Assembly (NCBI GenBank): GCA_021739765.1
Contig: JAIPBD010000017.1
Coordinates: 1-64,000, forward strand
Direction: 5' to 3'
Length of the DNA: 64,000 nt
Source: Melioribacteraceae bacterium
GTDB lineage: Bacteria; Bacteroidota; Ignavibacteria; Ignavibacteriales; Melioribacteraceae
Of the stretch, positions 1-48,800 are shown in pieces. The notes beneath the pieces are model-generated. The model saw nothing but the letters and a program-made list of their open reading frames with translations, did not search any database and was not told where the DNA came from. Every line of letters starts with the position of its first letter. Position 1 is the stretch's first letter. Made by a program: the position numbers and the translations under genes.

Positions 1-92
1 AATTGTGTAACTTGTTTTTTTCAGCCGAAAAACAGAATTATGCAATAGAAAATTTTAGAAACGAAAACAATCACAATATGAGGAATAAACTC

Positions 93-11128: not shown

Positions 11129-11381
11129 ATTTTTGGGTGTGATTGAACTTCACAATTCGTTATATTTTTTAATACTTATTGTCAATTTTTATTAATATTC
11201 TATTCGATAGAACAAGATTCCAACCAATGGTGGCTTTTTTTATATTTGAGAATAATTTTGAAATGTTAATCATTATTTTAGTTGAGATTAGAAAATATTT
11301 ATAATTTCAAATGTAATCGGAATCGTGAAAATTATTAATCAAATCACAAAAATTATCAGAACCAAAGAATATAGGAAGCTT

Positions 11382-13040
11382 ATGTCCAAAACAATAAAGC
11401 TGCTTCTAACAATTACCGTAATATTAATTTCAGCCAATTGTACTCAATCCCAAAAACAAAATGCTGAAACCTTCATACGAATAAATCAGGTTGGATTTTT
11501 ACCGAGCGACGTAAAATCGGCCGTGGTTTTATCCGGCTCAAAAATTGACCAAAAACCATATCAAATTGTCGATAGAAAAGGCTCGGTTATACTTAACGGT
11601 ATATTACCAAATTCGTCCGGAGCTTATGGTGAATTCCCATTTTCATACAGAGTATATTTTTCGAAACTAAGAAAATTTGGTACTTACAAAATGAAAATCG
11701 GAAACAGCTCCTCATACGATTTCCAGATTGGTTCTAAAATTTATAATCCGGTTGTTGATTCACTTTTACAATTTTTTAAGGTTCAAAGATCGGGATATAC
11801 AAATCCAAGATTGCACAAAGTATCTCATATAGCGGATGCAACCAGTATCCTTGATGCTGGAAAAGTAATTAATGAAACACATGATGTTACCGGCGGTTGG
11901 TACGATGCGGGTGATTACATAAAATTTGTTAACACAACGGCTTATGCAACTTACACACTGCTGTTTGCTTATGATTTTGCACCTCACAAATTTAGTTTTG
12001 ATCACGATAAAGACGGTGTTCCCGATATTCTCGAAGAAGCCAAAATTGGTTTAGATTGGTTGTTACGCGCGCAATATAAAGGCAAGAAATTAATTGTACA
12101 AGTTCAAGATTTAAGAGATCATGATGTTGGTTGGAGATTGCCTGAAGATGATCCACTGGCGTTTGATCGCCCGGCATTTGTCGGAATCGGTAAAAATTTG
12201 ATTGGTGTTTATGTTGCCGCAATGTCATTAGGTTCGAAAATCTGGCGTGAGAAGATTAATTACCCCGAATACGCGGATCAGTGTTTAACCGCGGCAGAAA
12301 ATTATTATGCTCTCAAAGATAGCGCGCCTGATGTTGACAGCACCGGAACTCATTATATTGACAAACTTTTTGCGGGTAAAATGGCACTCGGCGCAATCGA
12401 GTTGTTCCTCGCAACCGGAAGAAAAGATGCCTTAGCCGACGCCAAAATGTATGGTGACAAGGATGGTTCGGAGGTTTGGTGGAGTTGGGGGAATATTGCA
12501 GCTTATGCGCATTACAGGTTAGCAAAAATAGAACCACGTTTCGGAGATTATCTGAAGGTTAACCTTTCCTCATTTAATAAGAATAAAGAAAAGATGTTGT
12601 TTAATGAAGGTGCCGCATACACTTGGGGTACAAATAATACTTTACTCGGTGTTAGCCTTCAAAATATACTTTACAGGGACTTAACCAATTCAAATGAATA
12701 TGACACTGTCTCTGTTTATCAACGAGACTACATACTGGGCAGAAATGCGTGGGGTGTGAGTTTTATCGCGAAAATCGGAACTGAATATTCGCGTAACTTT
12801 CATCATCAAATTGCGTATTTGCAGAATGGATATTTGCCCGGTGGCTTTGCCGCGGGTCCAATTAGTAAAGAATTTTTAGATGGTTACAATATTCCGTTCG
12901 ATAAACCGGATAGGTTCTCGAAATTTCAAACTAAAGACGCTGTTTATCGTGATGATAGAATGGATTATGTAACCAATGAACCGACAATTACAGCAAATGC
13001 CACAGCTGTGTTTGTAATGGGTTATTATTCCAATCGGTGA
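11382..13040 (+). CDS. Glycoside hydrolase family 9 (endoglucanase-type) with N-terminal Ig-like domain
   Basis: GH9 enzymes invert beta-1,4-glucosidic bonds in cellulose-like glucans. The protein has an N-terminal Ig-like domain of the CelD_N type (opening IRINQVGFLP) and then an (alpha/alpha)6 catalytic domain. VTGGWYDAGDYIKF carries the Asp pair around the general base. The His region (YILGRNAWG, then FHHQIAYLQNG) and the C-terminal acid region (YVTNEPTITANATAVF) fit the general-acid Glu. I prefer ATG 11382, which gives 552 aa and begins just before a signal sequence with AGGAAG 3 nt upstream. A GTG at 11325 would add 19 residues ahead of it. A Cys after LISAN could be a lipidation site, but the lipobox is poor. 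Export to the periplasm or cell surface is likely. The gene fits the neighbouring surface proteins. Confidence 0.88.
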   Translation: MSKTIKLLLTITVILISANCTQSQKQNAETFIRINQVGFLPSDVKSAVVLSGSKIDQKPYQIVDRKGSVILNGILPNSSGAYGEFPFSYRVYFSKLRKFGTYKMKIGNSSSYDFQIGSKIYNPVVDSLLQFFKVQRSGYTNPRLHKVSHIADATSILDAGKVINETHDVTGGWYDAGDYIKFVNTTAYATYTLLFAYDFAPHKFSFDHDKDGVPDILEEAKIGLDWLLRAQYKGKKLIVQVQDLRDHDVGWRLPEDDPLAFDRPAFVGIGKNLIGVYVAAMSLGSKIWREKINYPEYADQCLTAAENYYALKDSAPDVDSTGTHYIDKLFAGKMALGAIELFLATGRKDALADAKMYGDKDGSEVWWSWGNIAAYAHYRLAKIEPRFGDYLKVNLSSFNKNKEKMLFNEGAAYTWGTNNTLLGVSLQNILYRDLTNSNEYDTVSVYQRDYILGRNAWGVSFIAKIGTEYSRNFHHQIAYLQNGYLPGGFAAGPISKEFLDGYNIPFDKPDRFSKFQTKDAVYRDDRMDYVTNEPTITANATAVFVMGYYSNR

Positions 13041-13081: not shown

Positions 13082-13113
13082 GTATCATTATGAGATAATT
13101 CTCATAATGATAC
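13082..13113. repeat. Perfect 14-bp inverted repeat, 4-nt loop
   Basis: GTATCATTATGAGA (13082-13095) is the exact reverse complement of TCTCATAATGATAC (13100-13113), with TAAT between. No T run follows on the + strand, so it is not a typical terminator for the GH9 gene. It lies 95 nt upstream of the next start codon and could be an operator or an mRNA-stabilising hairpin. Confidence 0.7.
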
Positions 13114-13208
13114 GCAATCTAAATTTGAGCTATTGATTTATATCACATAGAACCATTAATTTTAGGCACGTATTTTGATTCTATGTATAGCTTATAATAG
13201 GGAAAAGT

Positions 13209-14591
13209 ATGACTAGTTCAATAAATTTGGTGAAAACGGGTTTTAACCTACTTGATAATAATTGGGGTGGTGTTTACCAGGGCGGAAGTTATGTTGTTAT
13301 CGGGCCTCATAAATCCGGTAGAACTTTGCTTGGTTTGCAGTACGCCATCCAATCAGCAAAATCACAAGAAACTTGTCTGTATTTTACAAATATGCGACCG
13401 AAGGATCTGATGATTCAAGCAGCGAGCTTGAACTTTGATATTCAATCCTACATGAATAAAAACCTGCTTGTAGTTGTTAGAGTTGCCCCTCCTTCAGATA
13501 TTTCCGATATAAATAATCACGATGAATTTTTAATCGAATATATGAATGATATCGTGACCGTGGTTAGTCAGTACAGTCCCAACAGAATAATCTTTGATGA
13601 GCTTACACCATACATCGGTTTTCGAAATTTGGATCTTCTCCGGGATGTCTTTTTGCATACTTTAGAAACTATAGAAGATAGAGATATTACGAGTATGTTT
13701 GTTTTGGGAGAACCGGCAACGGAAAAAGCTGCGGCACTTATAGAAACAATTGCCGGAGTTGTTACAGGAAGAATTTACCTCAGAAAGGCGAAGAACAGAC
13801 CGGTAACAGATAATGTTGTTGGAACCGCAACGATAATTCCAAATATCGGCCATACGCAAGGGAAATTCACAAAGGATTATGAGATTAAACCGTATATCGG
13901 AGTAACGGCAGTTGGTGAGAAGGACGATAACGCGCCTGCAACGGATAAAAAAGAAGAAATTGAGAGAATTAAAGAAGAGCTTGAAAAAGAAGAGAAAAAA
14001 TTAGACGAGACCAAAAGCGATCTGAAAAAAATTAATGTAGAACCAAAAAAAGACAAGCCAATTTCGGTTCAGCCAACAGCTAAATCTGTCGAAAAAGCTC
14101 CGCCAAAACATACAGCCCCAACTACGAGTACGGGATTTAAGTTTTCTAATATCTATAGTTTTAATGATTTTCAGCTGATTTTGAATAATCAAATAGCTTT
14201 GTTCAAAAGTACCGGACAGGTATTTAATTTATTGATATTTAAGATTGATCCGGCGGCATTGGTAAATGGATATTTAACTCTTAGTCAGTTTCAACAAACT
14301 ATTAAGGCTTCTGTTGATAACAAAGACAAAATATGCTTGGTTGACAATAAAATTATTGTATTGGTTGTAAAAAGTACCGAAGAAAGAGTTCAAAACATTT
14401 TTGACAAAATTAAACCCAATCTTCCCAGCAAAGACGAAGATTATATCAAAAAAGTGATTGAATACATTTCGGTTTTCAACTATGAAATTGAAGAATCCAT
14501 CAGTAACGCTGATAAATTAACCGAATATGTAATTGCCCCTGAAAGGGAAGCTGAAAATGCATACATATCATATTCTGAGTTAGAAAAATAA
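13209..14591 (+). CDS. RecA/KaiC-like ATPase with coiled coil and possible degenerate GGDEF-like domain
   Basis: Residues 1-235 look like a RecA/KaiC-superfamily ATPase (TGFNLLDNNWGGVYQGG opening). The Walker A-like loop is G32-P-H-K-S-G-R-T39, where Arg replaces the usual Lys; the Walker B strand is IIFDE with D130. A charged coiled coil rich in Glu and Lys spans about 240-285, followed by a Pro/Lys linker. The last ~150 residues (from FKFSNIYSF) follow the strand pattern of a GGDEF domain: FNLLIFKID, then CLVDNKIIVLVV where GGDEF would sit, then SNADKLTEYV. That part is inference, and the signature itself is absent. Its stop overlaps the next start by one base, so the two genes are translationally coupled. 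I infer a regulatory or assembly ATPase for the export locus. Confidence 0.7.
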   Translation: MTSSINLVKTGFNLLDNNWGGVYQGGSYVVIGPHKSGRTLLGLQYAIQSAKSQETCLYFTNMRPKDLMIQAASLNFDIQSYMNKNLLVVVRVAPPSDISDINNHDEFLIEYMNDIVTVVSQYSPNRIIFDELTPYIGFRNLDLLRDVFLHTLETIEDRDITSMFVLGEPATEKAAALIETIAGVVTGRIYLRKAKNRPVTDNVVGTATIIPNIGHTQGKFTKDYEIKPYIGVTAVGEKDDNAPATDKKEEIERIKEELEKEEKKLDETKSDLKKINVEPKKDKPISVQPTAKSVEKAPPKHTAPTTSTGFKFSNIYSFNDFQLILNNQIALFKSTGQVFNLLIFKIDPAALVNGYLTLSQFQQTIKASVDNKDKICLVDNKIIVLVVKSTEERVQNIFDKIKPNLPSKDEDYIKKVIEYISVFNYEIEESISNADKLTEYVIAPEREAENAYISYSELEK

Positions 14592-17446
14592 TGAGAGTTT
14601 TTTTTTACATATTAATTTTAGCTTTTTTTACCACTGTTATTAATGCCCAACCGAAGCAAGCTCAAACATTAAAAAGGCAAGCTGTTGAATATTTGAATGC
14701 TGAAAGATACGGCGAGGCGATAGAATTATTTAATAAATTTATAATTTCTGATCCGCAAAATCCGGAAGGCTACAATCTAAGAGCGATCTGTTATGAAAAC
14801 AGAAAACAATATGCATGGGCTCGGGTTGATTATAGAAGGGCCTACAAACTTGATCGCACTAATCCGGAATATCAAAAAAACCTCGCTCGATTAAAAACTA
14901 TCTGGTACCCGCAACTTTACGAAAAAATTGACGGTCACCGGCGTGAAATCGAAATTACTCCTGACGATCCTTTCAATTACCTTGAAATTGCAAATTCATA
15001 CAGATGGTTGGAAGAATGGGAAGATTCCGAGCTTTGGTATGATCGATATCTTGCGATGGATGAAGATGCTTCTCCTGATGAAATTATTCGTTATACAAAT
15101 GTTCTTGCCGAATTAAAACACGTTACAAAAGGGGAAAGAGTCCTTCGGAAATATACGGTCAAACATCCCGATGATTGGAGGATATGGAGCAGACATGGAT
15201 ATTTTCTGCTCTGGCTTGGTCGAAATAAAGATGCGGAGCAATCATTTTTACAGGCGTTAGCAATAAAACCATTTTTTAAAGAATCCGAAGAGGGTTTGGA
15301 TTTAGCGAGAAGAACATTCCTTACAGAATATACTCCGGGTCGTGAATATCCGATAGATAAGTATTTTAGAATTCTTAGAAATGACCCTAATAACGACGCG
15401 GTACGATTTCAACTGATCGATGCCTTGATGGAGGTTCAGCGGTACGATGAAGCTTTAGATCAGATTGAATATCTGAGACCAAATTATGAAGGCACCGAGC
15501 CATTTGATTCTATCGAATCGCAATTGGTGGGAATTCGTCAGAAAACCTATGAGGAACGAATTGCAGAATTATTAACCCGTGTGGAAAATCAACCAACGGA
15601 TAGAATTGCTGTTCGAGATGCTGCCGAATATTATTCAAAACTTCAAGAATACGATAAAGCTATGGAGCTTATAAATAATTATTTATCGGTTATTCCTGAA
15701 GATGCCGAACTGCATTTCTTGCTCTCTAGAATATATTCTTACGATCAAAATTTTACCGACGCGTATATTCATGCGGATCAGGCTGCGTTGTATGAGCCGA
15801 ATAATTCCGAGTATAACTTATTTTCAGGTCAACTCGGAGTTTGGTTGGATACAGATCTTGATTTGGCTGAAGAAAGACTTATGAAGGTTTACGAAGTTCA
15901 ACCTGAGAATCTTTACGCGCTGATAACACTGGGTACTCTTAATTTTCAAAAGCAAGATTACGACCAAGCTGAATTCTATATCTCCCGCGCTGAGGAGCTA
16001 AGTGCCGAAAATCCTGATGTAGTTGAATTAGTACAAATGATTGAATTACAGAAGCTGAGAAATGAAGAAGCTCGGTTGATCAACAACTTGGATTATGGCA
16101 GGCAATTAGCAATGGATAAGGAGTGTGGGGAAGCGGTTCCTTATTATGAAGAATTCCTTGGAGCATTTCCTGACAACATGCAGGTGAGGAAAGAGTTGGC
16201 GGATGTTTATCTCTGCATGGGAGAGTTTGATTCCGCAATTGAAATTTATGATGAAGTATTGTCGAATGAATACACTTACGATATTGATAAGATGCGAGGT
16301 AAAATAGTTTTCTGGAGCGGTGATTCCACACGAGCTCTCGAAGAGTTTACGAGATTGGTGGATGAGAATCCAGCTGATATGGAAGCAAAATTATTCCTCG
16401 GAGATTCATACCTGGAGAATAGTGAATTTGAACAAGCAAGAAACGTTTATACAAGTCTTGCTGATTCAGCTCCGGCTTCCTTTATGATTGAGCAGCGCCT
16501 AAGTTGGCTGCCTCCGGAACCTGTCGATCCGGGAAGTTTTGAAAGTTGGATTACTAACCTCAGCTATTCGATGTTTTCTTACGCGAATGTTTATCCTGTT
16601 GCTTATTTCTTTAACGATAATCTGAATTTCAACTATTATTATCTCGGAACCGGTTTAGAATTCGGATTACTCGATTTTGTATCGGGCGGAATGAAATGGT
16701 ATACAGGACAAGTTAGCGGGGTAGGAGGTTCCTTTGGTTATACTCAATTTATGGGTCAATTACTCTCCCGAATTACTGAAGATATTAGCTTGAATGTCGG
16801 ATATGGATTGATGAACGCCACAAATTATTTTAGACATCCGGTATGGGAAGCCTCGGCGATCTATAGACCAAATGATAAACCTTACAAAGCAAGCGCAAGT
16901 TATGTTTATAACGATGCGGCTGCTATTTTGTACAGCCCTTATCTCGTTTTAAACAGATTAGATGCGCATAATTTTAGATTGGAAGGCGATTATTTATTTC
17001 GAACCGGTCTTAAATTATTTAGTTATTATCAATTAGTTGTAACCGAAGAATCCGGTCGAATTCCTGCGAATGTCGGAAATATTTTCCAGGGCAGAATTGG
17101 GAAACATTTTCTGAAAGATTTGATGGTTGGGTACGAATATCATTTTATTGATTATCAGTACACATTTAACACACTTTATTATTCCCCGCAAGGTTTTGAG
17201 TCGCATAGTATATGGGCAGACTGGTTTGTGATCGACGAAAAGGACCTCGATATAACTACCGGAGGAAAATTAGGGTATGTTCCCTCAAGCGATTTTCTTG
17301 TTCGAGAGGCATATATAAAAGGAGAATATAGAGTGATTGAAACTTTATTCTTAACCGGACAAGCTTTTATCGGAAGCAGTTTTAGGGAGAGTTCAAGTTA
17401 TGATTCCGGCTCAATAACTGTCGGAGCATCATGGAAAATTTATTGA
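14591..17446 (+). CDS. TPR protein with C-terminal outer-membrane beta-barrel (PgaA/YaiO-like layout)
   Basis: The protein has 951 residues and an N-terminal signal peptide (MRVFFYILILAFF to about 20). Next comes a long TPR superhelix, residues ~25-640, with repeated A..Y...A and P.N motifs. The last ~305 residues, from about 645, alternate hydrophobic and aromatic residues, have Gly/Tyr-rich strands, and end in KIY, an aromatic terminal residue as in outer-membrane barrels. Periplasmic TPR plus barrel is the architecture of the poly-GlcNAc exporter PgaA and of PelB/AlgK-AlgE pairs. With the glycosyltransferase just downstream, a polysaccharide export role is a reasonable inference. Its ATG overlaps the previous stop. 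About 145 nt separate it from the glycosyltransferase. Confidence 0.78.
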   Translation: MRVFFYILILAFFTTVINAQPKQAQTLKRQAVEYLNAERYGEAIELFNKFIISDPQNPEGYNLRAICYENRKQYAWARVDYRRAYKLDRTNPEYQKNLARLKTIWYPQLYEKIDGHRREIEITPDDPFNYLEIANSYRWLEEWEDSELWYDRYLAMDEDASPDEIIRYTNVLAELKHVTKGERVLRKYTVKHPDDWRIWSRHGYFLLWLGRNKDAEQSFLQALAIKPFFKESEEGLDLARRTFLTEYTPGREYPIDKYFRILRNDPNNDAVRFQLIDALMEVQRYDEALDQIEYLRPNYEGTEPFDSIESQLVGIRQKTYEERIAELLTRVENQPTDRIAVRDAAEYYSKLQEYDKAMELINNYLSVIPEDAELHFLLSRIYSYDQNFTDAYIHADQAALYEPNNSEYNLFSGQLGVWLDTDLDLAEERLMKVYEVQPENLYALITLGTLNFQKQDYDQAEFYISRAEELSAENPDVVELVQMIELQKLRNEEARLINNLDYGRQLAMDKECGEAVPYYEEFLGAFPDNMQVRKELADVYLCMGEFDSAIEIYDEVLSNEYTYDIDKMRGKIVFWSGDSTRALEEFTRLVDENPADMEAKLFLGDSYLENSEFEQARNVYTSLADSAPASFMIEQRLSWLPPEPVDPGSFESWITNLSYSMFSYANVYPVAYFFNDNLNFNYYYLGTGLEFGLLDFVSGGMKWYTGQVSGVGGSFGYTQFMGQLLSRITEDISLNVGYGLMNATNYFRHPVWEASAIYRPNDKPYKASASYVYNDAAAILYSPYLVLNRLDAHNFRLEGDYLFRTGLKLFSYYQLVVTEESGRIPANVGNIFQGRIGKHFLKDLMVGYEYHFIDYQYTFNTLYYSPQGFESHSIWADWFVIDEKDLDITTGGKLGYVPSSDFLVREAYIKGEYRVIETLFLTGQAFIGSSFRESSSYDSGSITVGASWKIY

Positions 17447-17591
17447 TAACTCGGTTTAGTTCGATAATTACTTTAATGATTTGTGCTAACTCTTTGTATT
17501 GCAATAAGTTAAAAAATAGATTAAATTTTAGACGAAAATTAGTACTTTGATGTATTTTAATAAATTTTATAAAATAATTGCCTGATAAATT

Positions 17592-18230
17592 ATGTCCGGA
17601 CCCGGAGAAGTATCACTAAATAAAAAAGCACCGCCATCTGATAAATACGATGCACACCAAATTATGCTTGATAATCGTGAGATTGCACCTCCTCCGAGAG
17701 ATGAGCAAGCTGAAAAAAAACGAATGATGATTTGGTCGGGAATTCTATCTATTGTGATGTTCGCGATAATTATGATTACGTTACCTTTCACAGTATTAAG
17801 CTTCGGTGGATTGGTCGTGTATGCGTCAACCGTAGCTTTAATCCTATTTCTATTCAACTTATTATTCCGCTATTTCGCAATTCTGTTATTGGCATATTTT
17901 TACATTACGAAATACACTGTGCTGGAGCGGGAAGGATATTTTCCATTTATTTCAATCGTAATGCCCGTTTTTAATGAAGGTCCTATTTTAAAAGAAAATT
18001 TAAAATCACTATTGAACTTGGATTATCCCAATTATGAAATATTAGTAATTAATGATGGTTCTAAGGATGAAACCCTGGATGTTGCGCTTGAAATGGTTGG
18101 TTACCATAAAGGGATAAGTTCAATGGTCAAAATCTCGATCTTGAATAAACCCAATGGTGGTAAATCAAAAGCACTAAATGCGGGTTGCCAGTATTCAGAA
18201 GCCGATATTGTTCTAAATGTTGATGGGTGA
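17592..18230 (+). CDS. Family-2 glycosyltransferase, N-terminal part (frameshifted)
   Basis: This is the N-terminal 212 residues of a membrane-bound processive GT2 related to PgaC, BcsA and hyaluronan synthase. After a hydrophilic N-terminus come two membrane segments (~45-100). The GT-A domain opens with ISIVMPVFNEGP, followed by VINDGSKDE and the acceptor-loop phrase NKPNGGKSKALNAG. The reading frame stops right after VLNVDG, exactly at the DGD metal-binding motif. Removing one G from GGG (18225-18227) restores VDGDSQLSSDSL and joins it to the next ORF, giving a 479-residue protein of ordinary family length. The gene is broken here or carries a sequencing indel. It starts a tightly packed run of genes. 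Confidence 0.85.
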   Translation: MSGPGEVSLNKKAPPSDKYDAHQIMLDNREIAPPPRDEQAEKKRMMIWSGILSIVMFAIIMITLPFTVLSFGGLVVYASTVALILFLFNLLFRYFAILLLAYFYITKYTVLEREGYFPFISIVMPVFNEGPILKENLKSLLNLDYPNYEILVINDGSKDETLDVALEMVGYHKGISSMVKISILNKPNGGKSKALNAGCQYSEADIVLNVDG

Positions 18231-19032
18231 TTCTCAGCTTTCTTCTGATTCCTTAAGAATGGGTGTAAGGCATTTTATTGATCCGGCGGTTGGTGCGGTT
18301 GCCGGAAATGTTAAAATTATGAACAGGAAAAAGTGGTTAACAGATCTTCAAGCTTTAGAATACATTGAAGGATTAAACTTGGCGCGGGCTGCTCAGGCCA
18401 TTGCTAAAATGGTAAATATTATTCCCGGACCAATTGGATTTTTCCGAAAAGCCGCATTGCATGATGGCGGTTATTATTCAAGTGATACTTATGCTGAAGA
18501 TGCGGACATGACTTTGAAAATTCTTGCTACAGGCTGGAAAATAGATTATGAACCAAATGCAATTTCCTATACGGAAGCTCCGGAAAAATTACACCAACTT
18601 CTTAAGCAAAGATATCGTTGGACAAGAGGTATTATTCAAGCGATCAGAAAACACAAAACCTATATTTTTAATCCTACAATTAATTTTAATAACACTATTG
18701 TTTTATGGATGATGGTTTTCGAATCTTTGTTCTGGCCCGCGATGAATATATTTGGTAATGTATTTTTTATTGTAGTCGGATTGATATACGGAATGTCGAG
18801 TTTGATTGCGTTATGGTGGATCAGTATTGCAATACTTGATATTATGGCTGCAATTTATTGTATTGCGGCTGAAAAAGAAGAAGTTAGACTGATTCCATAT
18901 TCTATTGTCTATCGCGTTATGTTTATTATAATTATTGATATTACAAAAGCAGCTGCGACAGTAGAAGAGTTTTTAGGAATTGAAATGAACTGGGGCAAAC
19001 TTGAAAGAGTTGGTTTACCAGGTGCTAAATAA
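18217..19032 (+). CDS. Family-2 glycosyltransferase, C-terminal part (frameshifted)
   Basis: This is the remainder of the processive GT2. True homologous coding starts at about 18226; the ATG at 18217 is only the frame's first start codon and overlaps the upstream fragment. It carries the second Asp region (DSQLSSDSL), the TYAEDADMTLKI acid motif, and the QRYRW motif (the QxxRW signature of processive synthases), followed by four or so membrane segments. QxxRW and the membrane segments indicate synthesis and translocation of a beta-linked polysaccharide across the inner membrane. No PilZ domain is visible, so any c-di-GMP control would have to come from a partner. The next gene follows after 27 nt. 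Confidence 0.85.
   Translation: MLMGDSQLSSDSLRMGVRHFIDPAVGAVAGNVKIMNRKKWLTDLQALEYIEGLNLARAAQAIAKMVNIIPGPIGFFRKAALHDGGYYSSDTYAEDADMTLKILATGWKIDYEPNAISYTEAPEKLHQLLKQRYRWTRGIIQAIRKHKTYIFNPTINFNNTIVLWMMVFESLFWPAMNIFGNVFFIVVGLIYGMSSLIALWWISIAILDIMAAIYCIAAEKEEVRLIPYSIVYRVMFIIIIDITKAAATVEEFLGIEMNWGKLERVGLPGAK
18225..18230 (+). other. Frameshift site in the glycosyltransferase
   Basis: The bases read GGG TGA in the upstream frame. Skipping one G gives GGT GAT, which encodes the expected Gly-Asp of the DGD motif and continues in the downstream frame. Only one nucleotide separates the broken and intact states. Confidence 0.85.
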
Positions 19033-19059
19033 AAATTACTTAATACAAAGAGGATAATC

Positions 19060-19617
19060 ATGGAATTAATTCCGATCCTATCATTGATAATTTTGGTTGC
19101 GACCATATCAACATTTGTACTTGCCGTTGGGGCATATATATTGTTTAAGGTTAGGGAAAGAAGAGGACAACGTGCAAAAGCTGCCGCACCTCCGGCTTCC
19201 ATTCCCGCTGAACTTATTGCACCCACTCCATTGATGGGCGACATGGGCAAAAGTAGAACATTTGAGGAGAGTGCTCAGATCACAAGACCAACCGGCGGTG
19301 GAGCTCGTCCAACATTTTTTACCGCCACAAAGGATAATGATCCGACTCGGCCTCAGATGAAACCGACATTTACCAGTTTGGCACCGACAAAATTGACCGG
19401 TAGTCAATTTACTCGTCCCGAGGCTCCGACAAGAGCAAGAGCCACTGCGGCTCCAACAAGAGTCACTTCCTTGAAGACAAGTGCCAAAACTTCTGAAACT
19501 GAACAATATGACAAGAAGAAAAAATTTATGCGTTATACCGCTGAAGGATATGTAGATCCTTCGCGAGATAAAGGCGGTGAATCAAACAAACAAGAGGAAA
19601 CACTTAGGTGGAGATGA
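19060..19617 (+). CDS. Single-pass membrane protein with Pro/Thr/Ala-rich tail, unknown function
   Basis: The protein has 185 residues and a good Shine-Dalgarno (GAGGAT) upstream. One transmembrane helix (about 5-30) is followed by a basic stop-transfer stretch (KVRERRGQR). The rest is a long low-complexity region rich in Pro, Thr, Ala and Arg with repeated PTR/PTFT-like phrases. I do not recognise a family. The polarity suggests a short outside N-terminus and a cytoplasmic disordered tail. Its end overlaps the next gene by 10 nt, so it is translationally coupled to the deacetylase-like gene and probably works with the glycosyltransferase at the inner membrane, perhaps as an adaptor or regulator. 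Confidence 0.75.
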   Translation: MELIPILSLIILVATISTFVLAVGAYILFKVRERRGQRAKAAAPPASIPAELIAPTPLMGDMGKSRTFEESAQITRPTGGGARPTFFTATKDNDPTRPQMKPTFTSLAPTKLTGSQFTRPEAPTRARATAAPTRVTSLKTSAKTSETEQYDKKKKFMRYTAEGYVDPSRDKGGESNKQEETLRWR

Positions 19618-21533
19618 AAGCACCGGAAGAAAGTGTTGACGGACTAAGGGTAAATTATCTGATTATCTTTTTAAGCGGAATGAGTCTGTTCATTGGAGCG
19701 GTTCTCATTTTTATGCTTATTATTCAACAAGTGTTCGGTAGATATGATCTTCGTCAAATTCTGCCGACAACTTCGAATCTGTCTTTGATGTTCGAAGATG
19801 AAGCAAGCGTGGCTGTTTTATATTCAAAATACACAGAAGTTATGTTACCCGAAGGCAGTACTTGGATTAACGATAATGTTGCTACTTGGGAAAGATTTGT
19901 CAGACAAAACAAAATGGTTGCTGAAGTTATTCAAGACGAAGACATCGAATTGGGAAATCACTTTAAGTATTCATTAATTGCACTTCCCGGTTGTCTTGCG
20001 CTAAGTGATAAACAAGTAGTTCAATTAAAAAAATTCATTGAGCAGGGCGGAAGTGTTTTTGCCTCAAGTGGTACGGGATCATTTTCCAACGAAGGCAAAT
20101 GGAAAGGATGGCAGTTCTTCACCGAAGTATTTGGATTAAATTTCTCCAGAGAAATTCTTCCGGAGGAAACTTATCGTCGTCACACATTAAGAGGCAATAT
20201 TCCGATTACAGCGGGCATTCCTACCGGATTTTCCTTAAAAATAGCCACATGGGATCGACCGATTTATGCCGAAATCCTGGAACCTAGAGCTAATCAAGTA
20301 AGTTTTTGGTACGATTACAGAAGAGAAGCCGGTTTGGTTCAGGAAGAGATTCAAAAAAGCGCCGGAATTGCTCATGGCACTTATGGTAACGGAAGATGGG
20401 TTTGGATGGGATTTGAATTCAATTCCGTGATCGGACAAACTGAAGATTATGTCTATTTTGATAAGCTTTTTATAAACAGTGTAAACTGGCTGTTAAACCG
20501 ACCAACCGTATTTATTCACGATTGGCCTTCACCTTACGAAGCCGCCGCGGTTTTAATTCCTACAATTGATGAGCAAGCTGGAAATATCAGCAACCTCTCA
20601 TCGGTTTTAAATGCCAGTACTATTTCCGCGACAATTTTTATGGATCCATACGATGAAGATATAACGTCATCTTTGCTGAGACCATTGGCAGGTATCGCGG
20701 ATTTCGGGGTTATCGGTGATGTTGGATTTAAAGAAACTATAATCGATACAACCAATAAACTGTATAAAAAAGAATCGCAGTTTGCTGTTTTAAAAGCAGC
20801 GAGAGACACACTCAAAAAATTAGCCGGTGAAGATCCAATCGGATTTAGACCAACGTATCAGTTTTTCGACGAAAATACTCTGCAAGCATTAAGTGCGTAT
20901 GATTATAAATTTATGATAACCGATTCTTCCGCCGACAGGTCAGTTCCGAGACTTGAGATACGTGAAGAAAAACCAATTATAATTCTAACTAAAACAAGTC
21001 GGGATGATTACACGGTTGTACGGGATTTTGGCTTAAAATCAGCAGAGTTTCAGAGATACACTTACATAGAAGATATTGACCGGATACTGTTCGAAGGGGG
21101 ATTATATATTCTTCAACTCCACACCAGTCAGCAATTGAAGGGAAATTATATCGGTGTAATTAACGAACTGACTAAATACATGCGAAACAAAAAAATGTGG
21201 CTTCCGTCAATTCAAGAGTTAAGTGAATGGTGGATTAGGAGAGGTCGCATCGAAATTAAACATGAAGTTCGAAGCGCAAGAAGGTTTATGGTGGAAGTTA
21301 CAAATCCAGCCAAAATAGCTACAAAAGATGTTTTAGTTGAAATTCATTTAAATAAAAAAATAGAAAATATTAAAGTTTCATCCGAAATTATTGGTACTCC
21401 TTTGCCGAAATATGATTTCGATTCTAAAACCCAATTGGTAACATTTTATTTTGATGTTTTGGAAGCTGGAGAATCAAGAGCTTATTTGCTTGATTTTGAC
21501 AATTTCGGTGAAAAATCAGTGGAATTATTTTAG
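19608..21533 (+). CDS. Membrane-anchored polysaccharide-deacetylase-like protein, catalytic motifs degraded
   Basis: The GTG start at 19608 has GAGGA 9 nt upstream; an ATG two codons later is the alternative. A transmembrane helix (~15-38) anchors a large extracytoplasmic part. Residues ~60-300 resemble a glutamine-amidotransferase/ThuA-like fold (LIALPGCLALSD, then GGSVFASSGTGS). Residues ~305-540 follow the order of a NodB-type deacetylase: AAVLIPTIDEQ where the catalytic Asp lies, IGDVGFKE where an HxxxxH zinc site would be expected, then GFRPTYQFFDE, then ILQLHTS. The expected zinc-binding His pair is missing, so activity is doubtful. A beta-domain ends the protein. By position it matches the modifying enzyme of other exopolysaccharide operons (PgaB, PelA). 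The fold assignments are inference. Confidence 0.6.
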   Translation: MEMKAPEESVDGLRVNYLIIFLSGMSLFIGAVLIFMLIIQQVFGRYDLRQILPTTSNLSLMFEDEASVAVLYSKYTEVMLPEGSTWINDNVATWERFVRQNKMVAEVIQDEDIELGNHFKYSLIALPGCLALSDKQVVQLKKFIEQGGSVFASSGTGSFSNEGKWKGWQFFTEVFGLNFSREILPEETYRRHTLRGNIPITAGIPTGFSLKIATWDRPIYAEILEPRANQVSFWYDYRREAGLVQEEIQKSAGIAHGTYGNGRWVWMGFEFNSVIGQTEDYVYFDKLFINSVNWLLNRPTVFIHDWPSPYEAAAVLIPTIDEQAGNISNLSSVLNASTISATIFMDPYDEDITSSLLRPLAGIADFGVIGDVGFKETIIDTTNKLYKKESQFAVLKAARDTLKKLAGEDPIGFRPTYQFFDENTLQALSAYDYKFMITDSSADRSVPRLEIREEKPIIILTKTSRDDYTVVRDFGLKSAEFQRYTYIEDIDRILFEGGLYILQLHTSQQLKGNYIGVINELTKYMRNKKMWLPSIQELSEWWIRRGRIEIKHEVRSARRFMVEVTNPAKIATKDVLVEIHLNKKIENIKVSSEIIGTPLPKYDFDSKTQLVTFYFDVLEAGESRAYLLDFDNFGEKSVELF

Positions 21534-21542
21534 GTATTCCCC

Positions 21543-23372
21543 ATGAAGTATAAAATTAAAATAATTCTTGGTTTGATATCCATTCTAATTGCCTCAAGCC
21601 TTTCGCTCAGTTGTGTGGAATCTATCGTAGGTGATACCAGCGGAAGCCCTTCGATCACAATATTTTCTCCGGTTAGTGGTGATTCGGTTCAAATCGGTAA
21701 AAATAATCTTGTTTACACGGCTGAGGATTATTTTGGGGGAGAGGGAATCGAACGTTATGAAATTTATTTGAATTCTGACCTTGATACCGTAGTTACTGTA
21801 GTTGATAATCAAAATCCTACCCTTCCGCTTATGATTGGAGAGGAATTATTAAACACCACAATTTCTTATCAAGTAGGCGTATTCAACATCGCCGGAAGTT
21901 CAGACTGGTCTGATTTATATACAAATATTTTTGTTCGGCCGAATACAAGTCCTCCTGATGCGCCGGATAGCTTGTTCCTCGAAAAATTGTCTGATAGTGA
22001 GGTGCTTCTAATTTGGAATGATAATTCAACTAATGAAGCAGGTTTTCAAATATGGCGGAGCATTGGAAATAACCAAAACTATGGTTCGCAGCCAATCGCG
22101 ACAATGTCAGCAAATAGTAACGCGTTTGCGGATGCGGGTTTAGCGCTCACCACAACAATCTATTTTTACAAAGTGAGGGCGGTTAATACTTATGGCAATT
22201 CCGATTACACAGAAGAAGTGTCAACCGGAAATATCGTTGTCAGCGGTAACAAACCAACAAATCTTGTCGGAGAGGCACTTGGGAAATCCAAAGTTAAATT
22301 AACATGGGACGATAATTCCAACAACGAGGTCGGCTTTGAAATCCAAATATCTACCGCAACTTCCAGTTGGAGCAGATTTGCCGCAGTTTCCCGCGATACG
22401 GAAGAATACACAGTTACGGGATTAACGAGTTTAACAACATATAGCTTTAGAATCGGCGCTTTGACGAATCCTACTGTTTATTCTGATCCGGTTACCGTTA
22501 CAACCGCGCGTATCGATGTGGAACCTCCGTCTCAATTAGTTGCCGAATACGATTCTACTACTCAGGTAGTAACATTATCGTGGCAAATAAATACGGTATT
22601 TGCAAACCAATCGTTAATTGAACGGAAAATTGGTAATTCGAATTCCTTCACTCAAATAGGAACAGTAGATTTTTCTGCGGCTAACAATAATGAGTATAGT
22701 GATACAGATCTAACCCAGAATTCTGTGCACACTTATCGGGTCAGACTCGCCACTACTGAAGATTTCAATACTGATTATACAAATGAAGTATCGGTAAGCA
22801 TTGGTAAACTACCTCCGATTCCACCCTCGACGATGACAATTACCGAGCTAATTCCCGGAACGTCTTTCAGATTATCGTGGAAGGATAATTCCAGTAACGA
22901 GGAGCGGTTCGAAATATTTAGTAAAGAAACTTCCGGCGGTACTTATTCTTTATATGTCACGGTGAATCCGAATATCAAAACTTATGATGTCAGCGGATTA
23001 GATCCATCGATACATTATTACTTTAAAGTACGAGCGTACAATGAATCCGGTGGTGAATCCATATTCTCCAATGAGGTGGTTACTCCAATACCTGCTCCAA
23101 CAAACTTGGATGGTACAGCCAGTTCCGATCCGTTGCAAATTGTTCTGACTTGGGACGATAATTCAGGTACAGAAAAAGGATTTATTATTGAAAGGCGGTT
23201 CGCGGGCGGAGGCGCTTATACCGAAGTCTTTGTGAGCGTGGAAAATGTCGAAACTTACACGGATAACAGTATATTCCGTGGAAGTTCTTATGAATACAGA
23301 ATAAAAGCTTATGATAATGAAACGGAATCAGCTTACTCAAGTGTTTTAAGGGTAACAGTTCCTTCTAAATAA
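21543..23372 (+). CDS. FN3-repeat lipoprotein
   Basis: The 609-residue protein begins with a lipoprotein-type signal peptide ending ASSLSLSC. An Ig-like domain (~35-135) is followed by about five fibronectin type III repeats, each with LxWxDNS near the start and YxFKVRAYN or YEYRIKAYDN near the end. It starts 9 nt after the previous stop and ends 1 nt before the next start, so it is in the same operon. It has no T9SS tail, unlike the two surface proteins at the left end. A periplasmic or outer-membrane-attached binding or structural role is likely, possibly holding polysaccharide. Confidence 0.82.
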   Translation: MKYKIKIILGLISILIASSLSLSCVESIVGDTSGSPSITIFSPVSGDSVQIGKNNLVYTAEDYFGGEGIERYEIYLNSDLDTVVTVVDNQNPTLPLMIGEELLNTTISYQVGVFNIAGSSDWSDLYTNIFVRPNTSPPDAPDSLFLEKLSDSEVLLIWNDNSTNEAGFQIWRSIGNNQNYGSQPIATMSANSNAFADAGLALTTTIYFYKVRAVNTYGNSDYTEEVSTGNIVVSGNKPTNLVGEALGKSKVKLTWDDNSNNEVGFEIQISTATSSWSRFAAVSRDTEEYTVTGLTSLTTYSFRIGALTNPTVYSDPVTVTTARIDVEPPSQLVAEYDSTTQVVTLSWQINTVFANQSLIERKIGNSNSFTQIGTVDFSAANNNEYSDTDLTQNSVHTYRVRLATTEDFNTDYTNEVSVSIGKLPPIPPSTMTITELIPGTSFRLSWKDNSSNEERFEIFSKETSGGTYSLYVTVNPNIKTYDVSGLDPSIHYYFKVRAYNESGGESIFSNEVVTPIPAPTNLDGTASSDPLQIVLTWDDNSGTEKGFIIERRFAGGGAYTEVFVSVENVETYTDNSIFRGSSYEYRIKAYDNETESAYSSVLRVTVPSK

Positions 23373-23373
23373 T

Positions 23374-25326
23374 ATGATAAAAGAGATAAATAAAAAATTA
23401 TTCGAAAATCAGCTTGGTGATATTCCTCTATTAATAATTGATGAGGAAGGGAAAATAATAGCTGCGAATAAAATATCGAGAAGAATGTTTCCGATTATTA
23501 GCAACGATATCTCATTTTATGATATGTTTGGAAATTTAATATCCCAAAATATTCGAAAATCAATATTCGAATCCGGAATACAAAACCGTATTTTTAAAGC
23601 CAGTTATAAAATTGAAAAGGCGGTTGATGAGGATATTGAATATCAAATTACGGTTTCACCATTTAACTCACATGATGAAATTCAATATTTTGTAACTCTA
23701 ATTCCTTTAAAAGACAAGTATCATCAACAGAATGTATACATCTACAAATCTGATTTAGATGATATCATTCAGGATGTTGATTTGCGTAACATTATCGGGA
23801 AGATAAAGTCTTCCTTTCCTTTCACTTTTATTGGAAAGGTTAAGGTTTCCAATGAAGTTGATACTATCGGATTTCCCATTTGGGTCAAAGATGCCAACCG
23901 CAAATTTGTCCTATCCAATAATAAGTTCGCTTCTACTCAAGAATTGAACAATAATGAAATTGAAGGCAGAATTGGTGAAGATTTTCAAACGGAAATTTCT
24001 AAACAATTATATGATGATGTCGATGCATTTATTAAAGATACGGCAAATTCGGTTGTTATAGAAAAGTATTACGCTCAGCAAACACAAGGCAAGTACGGTA
24101 TAAAAATTTCCGCGGAATCACCAATTTACGATTTAGATCAAAATGTTATAGGCTACATCGGATTCACTAAATATATGGATGAAAAAGATTTAGAATCTGA
24201 TAATCCCGTTGCGATTAAATATATAAATTCCACTAAAAAAGAAGCGCAGGTTGAAATGGACGATATTTTACTCCAAACAAGTCCCGAACCAATTTTTATT
24301 TATGAAACCGATAATTTAAAGTTTGTTGAAGTGAACGATGTTGCTTTAAAACTTTACGGTTACAAAAGGGAAGAGTTTCTCCAAATGGATTTGACAGATC
24401 TTTATGCTCCTGAAGATATTCAAACTCTTATTGAGTCCTCGACCGATAAATCAACTACGGGCAGTTTTAGCGGTCCCTGGAGACATAAAACCAAACCGGG
24501 AAAATCGATCCTGGTTGAGATTAGTAAATCATCAGTCACTTTCAGAGGCAAAGAGGTTAATATAAATGTTGTTAGGGATGTAACCGAAAAATTAGAAATG
24601 GAGAAAAAGCTAAAATCGTACAAGGCAACATTTGATAATTCCAATGATTTGATTTTTCTTGTTGATAAAAGTGGTTTTATAACTCACTCTAATGATAGAG
24701 TAAAAGTTGAATTAGGGTACTCGAAATCAGATTTGGAACAAAAACAATTTCTATCGATTGTTAGTGATGAAGATAGAGCCAATTTAAATTCGATGATATT
24801 ACAATCAAGCAAGAAGGAAGCCACAACTCTGGATGTGGGAATCAAGAAAAGCTCAAGTGGAATAATTCAAGCCCACTTAAATGCGATTCCAATATTGGAT
24901 TATAAAGACCAAATTGATTCGTATAATTTTACTCTCACAACTTTAAATTCCGACGCTAATCGCAGTTCTTCCTCCGGGCAAACGGTCGTTGCTGCTTCAA
25001 GTAAAGAAGGACTTGATACTTCGTTTTTATCAAATTTATTCCATGAATTATTGACTCCGGTGAATGTAATTATTGGTTTCGCACACGAAATTTATGATAA
25101 TATTGAAAATCCAAACGCCGAACAAAGAGAGGCCGCCGAAATTATTCAAGAAAATCAAAAAATTCTAATTCATACAATGGATACTGCTGCTGAGTACGCT
25201 TCTTTGCACGCGAATAAAATATCCGTTTCGCCAACAAATATTAAATTCATCGAAATTCTGGATGATATTCAGTCAAACACAAAAAAAAGTTGCGCAATCG
25301 AGAGGCATAGAGTTTTCTTATGGTAA
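23374..25326 (+). CDS. PAS-domain hybrid histidine kinase, N-terminal part (frameshifted)
   Basis: This 650-residue ORF holds an N-terminal PAS-like region (~10-115) and three further PAS domains (~150-275, ~290-410, ~412-525). The HisKA dimerisation helix has the H-box FHELLTPVN with phospho-acceptor His557. No transmembrane segment is visible, so it is a cytoplasmic sensor. After LDDIQSNTKK the frame runs into a nonsense tail. Dropping one A from the A8 run at 25281-25288 continues as KVAQSRGIEFSYG in the next ORF, giving a 966-residue protein. It follows the FN3 gene by 1 nt and is the last gene of the run, so I infer that it senses or controls the export locus. Confidence 0.85.
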   Translation: MIKEINKKLFENQLGDIPLLIIDEEGKIIAANKISRRMFPIISNDISFYDMFGNLISQNIRKSIFESGIQNRIFKASYKIEKAVDEDIEYQITVSPFNSHDEIQYFVTLIPLKDKYHQQNVYIYKSDLDDIIQDVDLRNIIGKIKSSFPFTFIGKVKVSNEVDTIGFPIWVKDANRKFVLSNNKFASTQELNNNEIEGRIGEDFQTEISKQLYDDVDAFIKDTANSVVIEKYYAQQTQGKYGIKISAESPIYDLDQNVIGYIGFTKYMDEKDLESDNPVAIKYINSTKKEAQVEMDDILLQTSPEPIFIYETDNLKFVEVNDVALKLYGYKREEFLQMDLTDLYAPEDIQTLIESSTDKSTTGSFSGPWRHKTKPGKSILVEISKSSVTFRGKEVNINVVRDVTEKLEMEKKLKSYKATFDNSNDLIFLVDKSGFITHSNDRVKVELGYSKSDLEQKQFLSIVSDEDRANLNSMILQSSKKEATTLDVGIKKSSSGIIQAHLNAIPILDYKDQIDSYNFTLTTLNSDANRSSSSGQTVVAASSKEGLDTSFLSNLFHELLTPVNVIIGFAHEIYDNIENPNAEQREAAEIIQENQKILIHTMDTAAEYASLHANKISVSPTNIKFIEILDDIQSNTKKSCAIERHRVFLW

Positions 25327-26275
25327 AATTTCCTCCTCACTTTTTGTTGAATCGGATTTAAGCAAATTTCAAACTTTGCTTTCACTATTAATAAAGTTTT
25401 CACTTCAAATTACTCAAGAAAAAAGGCTTTATCTATCAGCGTACCAGTTGGATAATGACAATTGCATAATCGGTGTTCGTGATAGCCGAACGGTGGTAAG
25501 CGATCGATTATCCTCCGGATTAAAAGAAGTACTCGAAGACGATGAAAGCGTTGTCAGACATAAATTCGGATTTTCAAGATTTGAAATCAGACTCGCACGA
25601 AAACTGATTCATTTATTGGGTGGAGATTCTGAAGTAATTATGAAAGCCGGCAGCCCAACCGAATTTGGATTTCTCTTCCCATTAGTATTTGACACTACAA
25701 ATCTAAATGAATTAACTGGTAATAAAAAAGAAGAAAAAATTGAGAAATCTGAAACCGAAGCGGAAGATGAGGTCGTAGTTCAAGGAGAGAAAAATAAAAT
25801 TGAACATGAAAAAGAAGAGAAAATTGAAATTCCTGAACCAAAACCCGAACCGAAACCTACTGCTCCGGTAGCTCAACCACCGGCTCCCAAAAAAGATATT
25901 GATCTAAAATCACTATCATGCCTTTATGTCGAAGATCAGGTTGATTCTCAAATTCTGTTTAAAGTACAAATGAAGGAATTAAAATCTGTTCAATTTGCAA
26001 ATAGTGTTGAAGAAGCAATGCCGAAATTAGAATCCGGTGAGTTCGATTTTATCGTTTTGGATATGAATTTACAAGGTGAGTATAATGGTCTGGACGCGCT
26101 CAGAATTATTCAACAGATGCCTGGTTACGAAAACAAACCTATGATTGCGGCAACTGCTTATGTATTACCGGGAGATCGGGATAAATTTATCGCCGCCGGA
26201 TTTACTGATTTTATTTCAAAACCAATTTTGCGTGATAAAATGATCGGTGTACTTGCTAAAGTGATGGGGAATTAA
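25262..26275 (+). CDS. PAS hybrid histidine kinase, C-terminal part: degraded HATPase plus receiver domain
   Basis: Homologous coding begins at about 25289, after the A8 run. The first ~130 residues have the layout of a HATPase_c domain: a helix where the N-box should be (FQTLLSLLIKFSL, without the key Asn), GVRDSRTVV in place of DxGxG, and FGFSRFEIRLARKLIHLLGG in place of the G2 region. The ATP-binding residues are largely lost. A Glu/Lys/Pro-rich linker (~150-205) leads to a receiver domain with SCLYVEDQ, the phospho-Asp in IVLDMNL and the Lys in ISKPI. The receiver looks intact. The C-terminus overlaps the convergent DUF2062 gene by 20 nt. Confidence 0.82.
   Translation: MIFSQTQKKVAQSRGIEFSYGKISSSLFVESDLSKFQTLLSLLIKFSLQITQEKRLYLSAYQLDNDNCIIGVRDSRTVVSDRLSSGLKEVLEDDESVVRHKFGFSRFEIRLARKLIHLLGGDSEVIMKAGSPTEFGFLFPLVFDTTNLNELTGNKKEEKIEKSETEAEDEVVVQGEKNKIEHEKEEKIEIPEPKPEPKPTAPVAQPPAPKKDIDLKSLSCLYVEDQVDSQILFKVQMKELKSVQFANSVEEAMPKLESGEFDFIVLDMNLQGEYNGLDALRIIQQMPGYENKPMIAATAYVLPGDRDKFIAAGFTDFISKPILRDKMIGVLAKVMGN
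25281..25288 (+). other. A8 run with frameshift in the PAS hybrid kinase
   Basis: Eight consecutive A lie at the junction of the two kinase ORFs. Seven A would read ACA AAA AAA GTT and join NTKK to VAQSRG without a break. Homopolymers of this length are prone to sequencing error and to replication or transcription slippage. Confidence 0.85.
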
Positions 26276-27739: not shown

Positions 27740-28363
27740 ATGTCAAAAGAATTAACAAACATTCAGCAAAAAATTCTTGATTATATTATTGATAGGAAAA
27801 CCTCAATTGGTATTCCGCCCTCGCTTGCTGAAATTGCGGAAAATTTCAATTACAGGAATCGTGCAACCGTGCAGCAACATTTAGCTTCGATCGAAAGGAA
27901 AGGATATATCAAAAGAAATCCCAAAATTGCCCGTGGAATTGAAGTAACGCTTGAGGAAAAGTTTTTTATTCCTCGACCGGTTATAGGCGAAGTTGCCGCC
28001 GGTAACCCTCTTACGATTTACCCCGATTCGCTGGATTCGATTGAACTTCCTACAATTGCCCGGATGCCCAAGGATTCGTTTCTGCTTCGTGTAAAGGGGG
28101 ATAGTTTGAAAGACGCTTACATCTTTACCGGAGATGTTGTTATCGTAAATCCTAACCTTGAACCCCGTGACGGTCATTTTGTAACAGCCGTTCTGGATGA
28201 TGCCGCGGTGGTTAAAAGGTTTTATAAAAAATCCCATAAAATTGAACTCCATTCGGAAAATCCGGAGTATGAACCTATCGTAATCGAGAAAGATTATTCC
28301 GGCTTTAAACTCGTTGGAGTTGTTGTCGGTGTTTATAGAAGCATGGAACGAAAAGTCGGTTGA
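27740..28363 (+). CDS. lexA: LexA repressor
   Basis: LexA represses SOS genes and cleaves itself when bound to RecA filaments. The 207-residue protein has an N-terminal winged helix-turn-helix (~1-70, opening LTNIQQKILDYI) and a C-terminal S24 peptidase domain. The cleavage pair Ala87-Gly88 lies in GEVAAGNPL, the catalytic Ser122 in VKGDSL, and Lys159 in AVVKRF. All are in the expected places, so self-cleavage should work. AAAGGAAG lies upstream of the start. It is followed on the same strand by two alkylation-repair-like genes, which suggests a small damage-response operon under its own control. Confidence 0.95.
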   Translation: MSKELTNIQQKILDYIIDRKTSIGIPPSLAEIAENFNYRNRATVQQHLASIERKGYIKRNPKIARGIEVTLEEKFFIPRPVIGEVAAGNPLTIYPDSLDSIELPTIARMPKDSFLLRVKGDSLKDAYIFTGDVVIVNPNLEPRDGHFVTAVLDDAAVVKRFYKKSHKIELHSENPEYEPIVIEKDYSGFKLVGVVVGVYRSMERKVG

Positions 28364-48598: not shown

Positions 48599-48800
48599 GA
48601 GTAGACCTTTTACATATCAAATAAACAAATTATCCCTAATTTAGCTAAAATTATTGTGAGAATTATGCCATTAGATAATAAGTTCTTCATATCTTTATTA
48701 TTTTCTGTACCAGAAATTCAAATTTATTATCACTGAATTAAATCCAATGTTGAGTTAAAATTAAGCAATCAGAAACAGCCATAAGCTTAAGGAAATATTG

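Follow-up and report, generated by a model that had tools for sequence, protein, structure and literature searches.

Within a 64,000-nt stretch of DNA from a Melioribacteraceae bacterium (contig JAIPBD010000017.1 of assembly GCA_021739765.1, positions 1 to 64,000; hereafter the window), we analysed a forward-strand locus that encodes a GH9 glycoside hydrolase, a KaiC-like protein, a TPR/barrel protein, a GT2 glycosyltransferase, a small protein with one hydrophobic helix (the one-helix protein), a membrane-anchored GATase/CE4-fold protein, an FN3-repeat protein, and a hybrid kinase. The locus is real and conserved, not a chance cluster, and, judging from its architecture, it is probably an undescribed variant of synthase-dependent exopolysaccharide secretion. 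We give a probability of about 0.6 to the reading that its products form a synthase-dependent machine for exopolysaccharide secretion, of a kind that none of the searched curated models matches. Among the new findings, the most solid is the occurrence of sigma-54-type promoter boxes together with the near absence of intact GGDEF enzymes in the carriers.

Conservation of the locus

The distribution of the locus was assessed in 59 genomes, including the own genome of the window, from three families of the order Ignavibacteriales. The CE4-fold protein was found in 51 of them, and the GT2 profile (E ≤ 1e-80) matched the identical 51 genomes, which excludes a chance cluster. Besides the own genome, 50 genomes were positive, and DNA around the matches was fetched for 49 of them, leaving out G054, with a match at contig ends. 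GT2 and the CE4-fold protein occurred together in all 49 loci, and the fetched DNA also held the one-helix protein in 48, the kinase in 47, the FN3 protein in 45, the TPR-barrel protein in 42, the KaiC-like protein in 40, and the GH9 enzyme, together with KaiC, in 35. Some of the missing genes are accounted for by contig ends or by split loci; in G037, G039, and G044, the GH9, KaiC, and TPR-barrel genes lie elsewhere as a unit. Allowing for these cases, the gene order recurs in the 49 loci, which was the outcome of the neighbourhood search proposed in the initial annotation. The co-occurrence of ATPase and kinase that it had proposed to check was likewise confirmed (kinase in 47/49 loci, KaiC-like profile in 53/59 genomes). 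These 53 genomes are the 51 synthase carriers, in one of which (G030) the match is a contig-end fragment, together with G002 and G004, where the matching versions are weaker.

A scan of 84,980 species genomes yielded 131 confirmed relatives. Among the 80 of them listed, the titles were those of this group or unspecific (Bacteroidetes/Bacteroidota, Chlorobiota, Chlorobiaceae, bacterium). Stygiobacter electus 09-Me, a named strain carrying a relative of the locus (L091) and bearing, unlike most, a record title without the word MAG, was also listed; judged by sizes only, its open reading frames fit the whole set, with GT2 and the kinase in one frame each. This pattern scan also missed the distant class described below, and diverged members elsewhere would escape it. 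The CE4-fold protein had no match among 72,556 plasmid records.

Analysis of a phylum sample of 395 genomes revealed 68 with some match, namely 37 full-length matches in this order, 13 strong distant ones (E ≤ 1e-39), and 18 weak ones, which were not counted. All 13 strong distant matches fell into one class, that of G227, where GT2 of this kind (E ≤ 1e-90) was present in 16 of 146 genomes. The KaiC (cut in L191), TPR, and GT2 genes followed each other in that order in 10/13 distant loci, with a GT2 identity of 51–58%. The CE4-fold protein was a single frame in 10/13, followed in several by a second copy, and the one-helix protein was detected in 8/13 by profile or BLAST and in 11/13 by motif. 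These counts include loci in which open reading frames were preferred on the other strand (L183, L185, and partly L190) and loci cut by contig ends (L184, L186, L191). No GH9, FN3, kinase, or lexA gene was matched next to the core in the 13 loci. A core of five genes (KaiC-like, TPR-barrel, GT2, one-helix, and GATase/CE4-fold) recurs in another class of the phylum. The membership given in the initial annotation is therefore to be amended, since its FN3 and kinase genes are unmatched beside the distant core, and it had missed both the GH9 gene and an SGNH-hydrolase-like gene present in 16/42 loci. No account of the locus was found in the literature searched, a body from which subscription papers and preprints were largely missing.

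Organization of the locus in the window

The initial annotation placed seven same-strand genes at 13209–26275. The positions and the single strand (+) held, while the GT2 and kinase genes proved to be frameshifted, and the true start of the locus is the GH9 gene at 11325, which ends 168 nt before the KaiC start. The KaiC and TPR-barrel genes overlap by 1 nt, and the one-helix and GATase/CE4-fold genes by 10 nt. Gaps under 30 nt, as first described, were confirmed with the sole exception of the 145 nt before GT2, the longest intergenic gap inside 13209–26275.

Both broken genes of the window are intact in most relatives: GT2 is a single frame of at least 440 aa in 48/49 (exception, L058), and the kinase is a single frame in 44/47 (exceptions, L043, L060, and L069, of which L069 is truncated at a contig end). 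Because the relatives read through in one frame, programmed frameshifting was rejected, and an assembly error or recent, local decay appears more likely. A second hybrid kinase/receiver gene on the minus strand (57067–59465) also appears to be broken into a pair of overlapping frames, pointing to indel errors that remain in the assembly. Between the GH9 and KaiC genes (13082–13113) lies an inverted repeat, perfect over 14 bp, with a loop of 4 nt and no T run after it; as a shared element it was rejected, since none of the 12 relatives inspected, out of 35, has a long repeat of this kind.

Predicted synthesis and export proteins

The GT2 gene (17592–19032, +; frames 17592–18230 and 18217–19032) encodes a processive-type synthase with PF00535 and PF13632 domains, the GT2 assignment passing its Pfam cut-off. 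In a 21-row alignment of intact relatives, the ND, DGD, ED, and QRYRW motifs were invariant, and these relatives possess the conserved D, DxD, ED, and QxxRW residues of processive GT2 enzymes. Among the curated models, PgaC_IcaA (TIGR03937) ranked first with 207.5 bits (L031) and 196.5 bits (L182) against a cut-off of 422.3, followed by the XrtG-associated and NodC-type models; all scores were far under the cut-offs. The cellulose synthase model CelA (TIGR03030) gave 73.4 and 70.4 bits for the same two sequences (cut-off 699.1), and the best solved-structure matches were hyaluronan synthases. The proposal of an exopolysaccharide-type synthesis and export locus is supported, with a GT2 that stays below the cut-offs for PgaC and for cellulose synthase.

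The presumed exporter is the TPR/barrel protein (14591–17446, +), with TPR families above the Pfam cut-off. All curated exporter matches were sub-threshold: the best in NCBIfam was PrsT (129.2 bits; cut-off 312.2), and PgaA (TIGR03939) and BcsC gave 48.7 bits (cut-off 366.65) and 21.2 bits, respectively. The C-terminal 310 aa are alignable across 39 sequences and look like an outer-membrane beta-barrel. The one-helix protein (19060–19617, +) is a possible synthase partner. Its N-terminal hydrophobic helix contains a conserved MELIPIL..I.LVATISTF motif followed by a variable tail in 48 relatives; it matched no Pfam family, and NCBIfam gave one weak match (E 0.006).

The GATase/CE4-fold protein (19608–21533, +) consists of a transmembrane helix (residues 17–43), a GATase1-like domain (64–298), a CE4/NodB fold (306–548), and a beta domain (549–632). 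Its Pfam score for polysaccharide deacetylase was 17.8 bits against a cut-off of 23.1, and Foldseek aligned it with PelA (9cgy) at an E-value of 2e-8 and a TM-score of 0.28 on the query. We used as a test what we take to be the CE4 metal motifs. HS/TxxH was found in none of 19 proteins of the distant class and in one of 50 from Ignavibacteriales, at residue 185, outside the CE4 fold; a conserved TFDD was not found in the alignments of this protein. Because these motifs are absent, active deacetylation is judged unlikely. Of the deacetylase-like protein initially described, the fold therefore stands and the metal motifs do not.

The FN3-repeat protein with an N-terminal signal (21543–23372, +; PF00041, 79.4 bits, above the Pfam cut-off) bears a lipobox-like site in 22 of 43 relatives and is thus lipoprotein-like in about half of them. 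The GH9 enzyme with a CelD_N domain (11325–13040, +; PF00759, 244 bits; PF02927, 49.7 bits) retains GGWxDAGDY and NEPTI..NATA, presumably the catalytic motifs of the family, across 30 aligned sequences. It is a possible trimming hydrolase with an accessory role like that of BcsZ. The GH9 partner with its conserved catalytic motifs hints at a beta-1,4-linked chain, which is the weakest of our inferences. In 16 of the 42 loci containing both neighbours, a gene of 392–465 aa for an SGNH-hydrolase-like protein lies between the TPR-barrel and GT2 genes. The GDS box was present in all six inspected, and of two scanned against the GDSL-like lipase family, one just exceeded the cut-off (33 vs 32.9 bits) and the other fell short of it.

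KaiC-like protein and hybrid kinase

The KaiC-like protein (13209–14591, +; PF06745 above the Pfam cut-off) comprises a KaiC-like domain (residues 1–237), a linker, and a C-terminal domain of GGDEF-like topology. The Walker A lysine is replaced by arginine, and the spacing to the TPR-barrel gene has a median of −1 nt across relatives. A PDB profile search with the C-terminal domain returned nothing but unrelated chains, AP-2/AP-1 adaptors among them, and GGDEF was absent from the 25 families listed, out of 38 Pfam families, for 39 KaiC-like members. A comparison with nine genuine GGDEF sequences, those that passed the filter out of 30 fetched loci, gave a hhalign probability of 0.3% (controls, 0.1–0.3%), despite 90 aligned columns in the expected GGDEF register. 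GGDEF homology by sequence was therefore rejected as unproven. The VIA-align list for the whole protein was filled by KaiC chains, so that it barely probed the C-terminal domain, and the lack of GGDEF or BcsE chains in it carries no weight. In its overall architecture, the second domain may be seen as recalling BcsE.

In the hybrid kinase (23374–26275, +; frames 23374–25326 and 25262–26275), the PAS, HisKA, and Response_reg domains scored above the Pfam cut-offs in the window, and HATPase was not listed by Pfam. HATPase_c exceeded its cut-off in one of five relatives scanned, by a margin of 0.5 bit, whereas another kinase from a relative scored 90.4 bits in the same library. The HisKA box and the receiver are conserved, the latter across 42 aligned sequences, but the ATPase domain is not. 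The degenerate HATPase domain makes kinase activity doubtful, and with it the locus's "own sensor kinase" in the initial annotation.

Genomes G002 and G004 are without this GT2 and the CE4-fold protein. In G004 (L265), a KaiC-like gene, a gene resembling a hybrid kinase (HisKA sub-threshold), and lexA stand side by side, and GT2 has no match; in G002 (L264), KaiC, kinase, and lexA are accompanied by a TPR-like protein and by a gene that is GT2-like but divergent. The adjacency in L265 without the synthase ties the KaiC-like protein and the kinase to each other. Since the pair occurs in both genomes without this GT2, KaiC may serve something wider than this synthase. Homologous loci lacking the glycosyltransferase or the barrel, named in the initial annotation as a refuting case, were thus encountered only as an exception, in which KaiC and the kinase are kept without this GT2.

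Sigma-54-type promoter boxes and the c-di-GMP question

Regions within 200 nt upstream of gene starts were searched for the pattern NGGCAYN5TTGN, which we take to be the sigma-54 (−24/−12) consensus. In the window, such a box, AGGCACGTATTTTGA, occupies 13164–13178 (+), 45 nt before the KaiC start. Among the KaiC upstream sequences, 31/39 contained a box, 30 of them at 41–59 nt before the start and one at −131, and so did 35/48 upstream of GT2 (the window not being among these 48). No box preceded the GH9 (0/19), TPR (0/39), one-helix (0/48), CE4-fold (0/49), FN3 (0/45), or kinase (0/47) genes, and one was found upstream of lexA in 1/24. Outside the two target regions, the pattern occurred 25 times in 1,768,848 nt on both strands, from which about 0.1 of 39 KaiC boxes would be expected by chance; mononucleotide shuffles likewise gave 0.1/39. 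The box-bearing sequences are related, so the 39 do not represent independent events. In the distant class, a KaiC upstream box was present in 8 of the 9 loci where KaiC could be placed, the stretch searched being the 350 nt before a conserved motif and in part coding, and a box preceded the one-helix gene in 7/11; the background rate was 0.019 per 200 nt. RpoN was detected in 57/59 genomes of the order and in 16/16 distant genomes. Being nearly universal in the sampled genomes, it is permissive and provides no correlation. Both a −24/−12 element at a fixed distance and RpoN in the genome were found, the exceptions being G009 and G018, which have locus and box but no RpoN match.

The biofilm polysaccharide synthases Bcs, Pga, and Pel of Gram-negative bacteria are usually described as controlled by cyclic di-GMP (c-di-GMP). 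Such control was considered here for the GGDEF-like topology of the KaiC-like protein. Exactly one GGDEF-family protein was found in 57 of the 59 genomes, with two in G007 and none in G003; that of the own genome lies at G000:C5:116105-116566. The GG(D/E)EF signature was lost in all 30 fetched of the 59 proteins; matches to the lax pattern in L194 and L205 fall outside the domain. A GGDEF match was absent in 15 of the 16 distant genomes carrying GT2, and PilZ had no match in the own genome (control match in 5/14 genomes). Because the carriers are mostly without intact GGDEF cyclases and the own genome has no PilZ match, c-di-GMP control is judged unlikely in most carriers, a conclusion that bears on the GGDEF and PilZ families only. 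The order's single GGDEF-family protein (L193–L222) is mostly about 620–650 aa long, with two apparent N-terminal transmembrane helices and, by eye, GAF-like regions.

Comparison with known systems

The locus shares with the type II cellulose system of Escherichia coli (BcsE/F/A/B/C/Z) a GT2 synthase, a TPR-barrel exporter, and an operon-encoded hydrolase. The likeness of the one-helix protein to BcsF is one that we assume. Unlike Bcs, the own genome has no PilZ match, the GT2 is far below the cellulose synthase cut-off, and BcsB and BcsQ are not among the family matches listed for the locus proteins. The Bcs hydrolase BcsZ belongs to GH8 and that of the locus to GH9, although their functions could be analogous. 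The two may also have in common a cytoplasmic protein that begins with a RecA/KaiC-like domain and ends with a GGDEF-like one. BcsE of E. coli is described as having a RecA/KaiC-like N-terminus, a REC-like domain, and a GGDEF-like C-terminus (PMC7439463). The position of the REC-like domain in that account corresponds to a poorly ordered linker in the KaiC-like protein.

The poly-N-acetylglucosamine (PNAG) system PgaABCD also has a TPR-barrel and a membrane-anchored CE4-fold protein, and PgaC is the closest model to the GT2. However, the GT2 and the exporter of the locus are below the cut-offs, the CE4 metal motifs are absent, a GATase-like domain replaces the GH domain, and the KaiC-like protein is additional. 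The one-helix protein may correspond to PgaD; it matches no Pfam family and one NCBIfam model weakly. With Pel, the locus shares a TPR-barrel exporter (PelB) and the idea of a degenerate-GGDEF regulator (PelD), and its multi-domain CE4-fold protein may be a counterpart of PelA. PelF is a GT4-type enzyme, whereas the locus uses GT2, and no PelG-like transporter is among its genes.

Proposed function and alternative explanations

In the mechanism that we propose, GT2 would polymerise a beta-linked polysaccharide and extrude it through the inner membrane, with the one-helix protein packing against the synthase. The GATase/CE4-fold protein would bind or guide the chain in the periplasm rather than perform the usual CE4 metal deacetylation, and the TPR-barrel protein would export it across the outer membrane. 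In Ignavibacteriales, the GH9 enzyme would trim the chain, and in some genomes the SGNH-hydrolase-like protein may act on acyl groups. Assembly or gating of the synthase could fall to the KaiC-like protein with its GGDEF-like domain, which would serve as a cytoplasmic hub in the manner of BcsE in E. coli but independently of c-di-GMP. Transcription is predicted to start from sigma-54 promoters before KaiC and GT2, where most relatives have boxes, and the hybrid kinase, with its conserved receiver and weak ATPase domain, might feed a phosphorelay signal into the system. On a bolder interpretation, the locus would represent a class of its own among Gram-negative polysaccharide secretion machines, kept across Ignavibacteriales and present in another class of the phylum, in which the synthase is gated by a KaiC-type ring-forming hub with a domain of second-messenger type whose messenger has been lost, and c-di-GMP control is replaced by a phosphorelay with sigma-54 promoters. 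We hold this to be less likely than not; if true, the BcsE/PelD type of regulator would have a messenger-free counterpart.

Several observations weigh against the reading of the locus as a novel secretion machine. The putative barrel region had no match of note among PDB sequences, sequence support for GGDEF homology of the KaiC C-terminal domain is lacking, and E. coli BcsE showed no sequence or profile similarity to the KaiC-like protein. The KaiC–kinase pair persists without this GT2 in G002 and G004, and G227, a distant carrier, encodes one strong, genuine GGDEF protein. In the window itself, GT2 and the kinase are broken, and no box precedes GT2 even with one mismatch allowed. Boxes are also missing in 8/39 KaiC and 13/48 GT2 upstream regions, and G009 (L048) and G018 (L068) have the locus and the KaiC box but no RpoN match, unless their RpoN genes were missed.

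A diverged PNAG/Pga or cellulose/Bcs system, with parts that drifted past the curated cut-offs, would explain why GT2 reaches 207.5 bits for PgaC_IcaA and the TPR protein 48.7 for PgaA, why the CE4-fold protein resembles PgaB/PelA in fold class (PelA 9cgy, Foldseek E 2e-8), and why there are echoes of Bcs in the GH9 enzyme and in the combination of KaiC with a GGDEF-like domain. Yet these scores are about half of the curated cut-offs or less, the CE4 metal motifs are missing, the gene content differs, and neither PilZ in the own genome nor intact GGDEF in the sampled genomes of the order and in 15/16 distant carriers was found; we consider such an origin unlikely. We are more sceptical still of a scenario in which the KaiC-like protein and the hybrid kinase regulate as a pair of their own within the lexA neighbourhood, the polysaccharide genes being linked to them by position only. 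The gene contents of L265 (KaiC, kinase-like gene, and lexA without a GT2 match) and L264 (with a divergent GT2-like gene) would suit this idea, but the KaiC gene overlaps the TPR-barrel gene (median −1 nt) and remains beside it in the three split-locus genomes, and in the distant class KaiC is retained with a core next to which the kinase and lexA are unmatched. Least probable to us is another surface glycan, for example one anchored to the cell or to secreted proteins, for which the FN3 protein and the giant, sorted proteins encoded upstream would act as carriers. The FN3 protein in 45/49 loci and the two giant FN3/Ig-like proteins with a type IX-like end (a motif that we presume) directly upstream in the window fit it. 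On the other hand, the processive motifs and the TPR-barrel indicate an exported chain, the FN3 protein is unmatched beside the distant core, and a giant protein was seen in 5/49 loci, a count limited by the DNA fetched.

If the locus is an exopolysaccharide secretion machine, its product is a specific candidate for a matrix polymer in Ignavibacteria, a group known mostly from metagenomes. A conserved Bcs/Pga/Pel-like locus with sigma-54-type promoters in carriers mostly without intact GGDEF also raises the question of the role of a BcsE-like hub without its messenger.

Neighbouring genes

Downstream of the locus lies a lexA-like gene (27740–28363, +), present there in the window as well as in 24/49 relatives, some others being cut by the fetched range; it is a stable neighbour without an evident functional link. 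The giant repeat proteins directly upstream are encoded at 3–3332 and 3522–11024 and appear FN3/Ig-like by eye; their ends resemble what we take to be type IX secretion sorting signals. Further downstream, three adjacent TPR-plus-histidine-kinase genes (44635–51074; two on the plus strand and one on the minus strand) are of similar build by eye.

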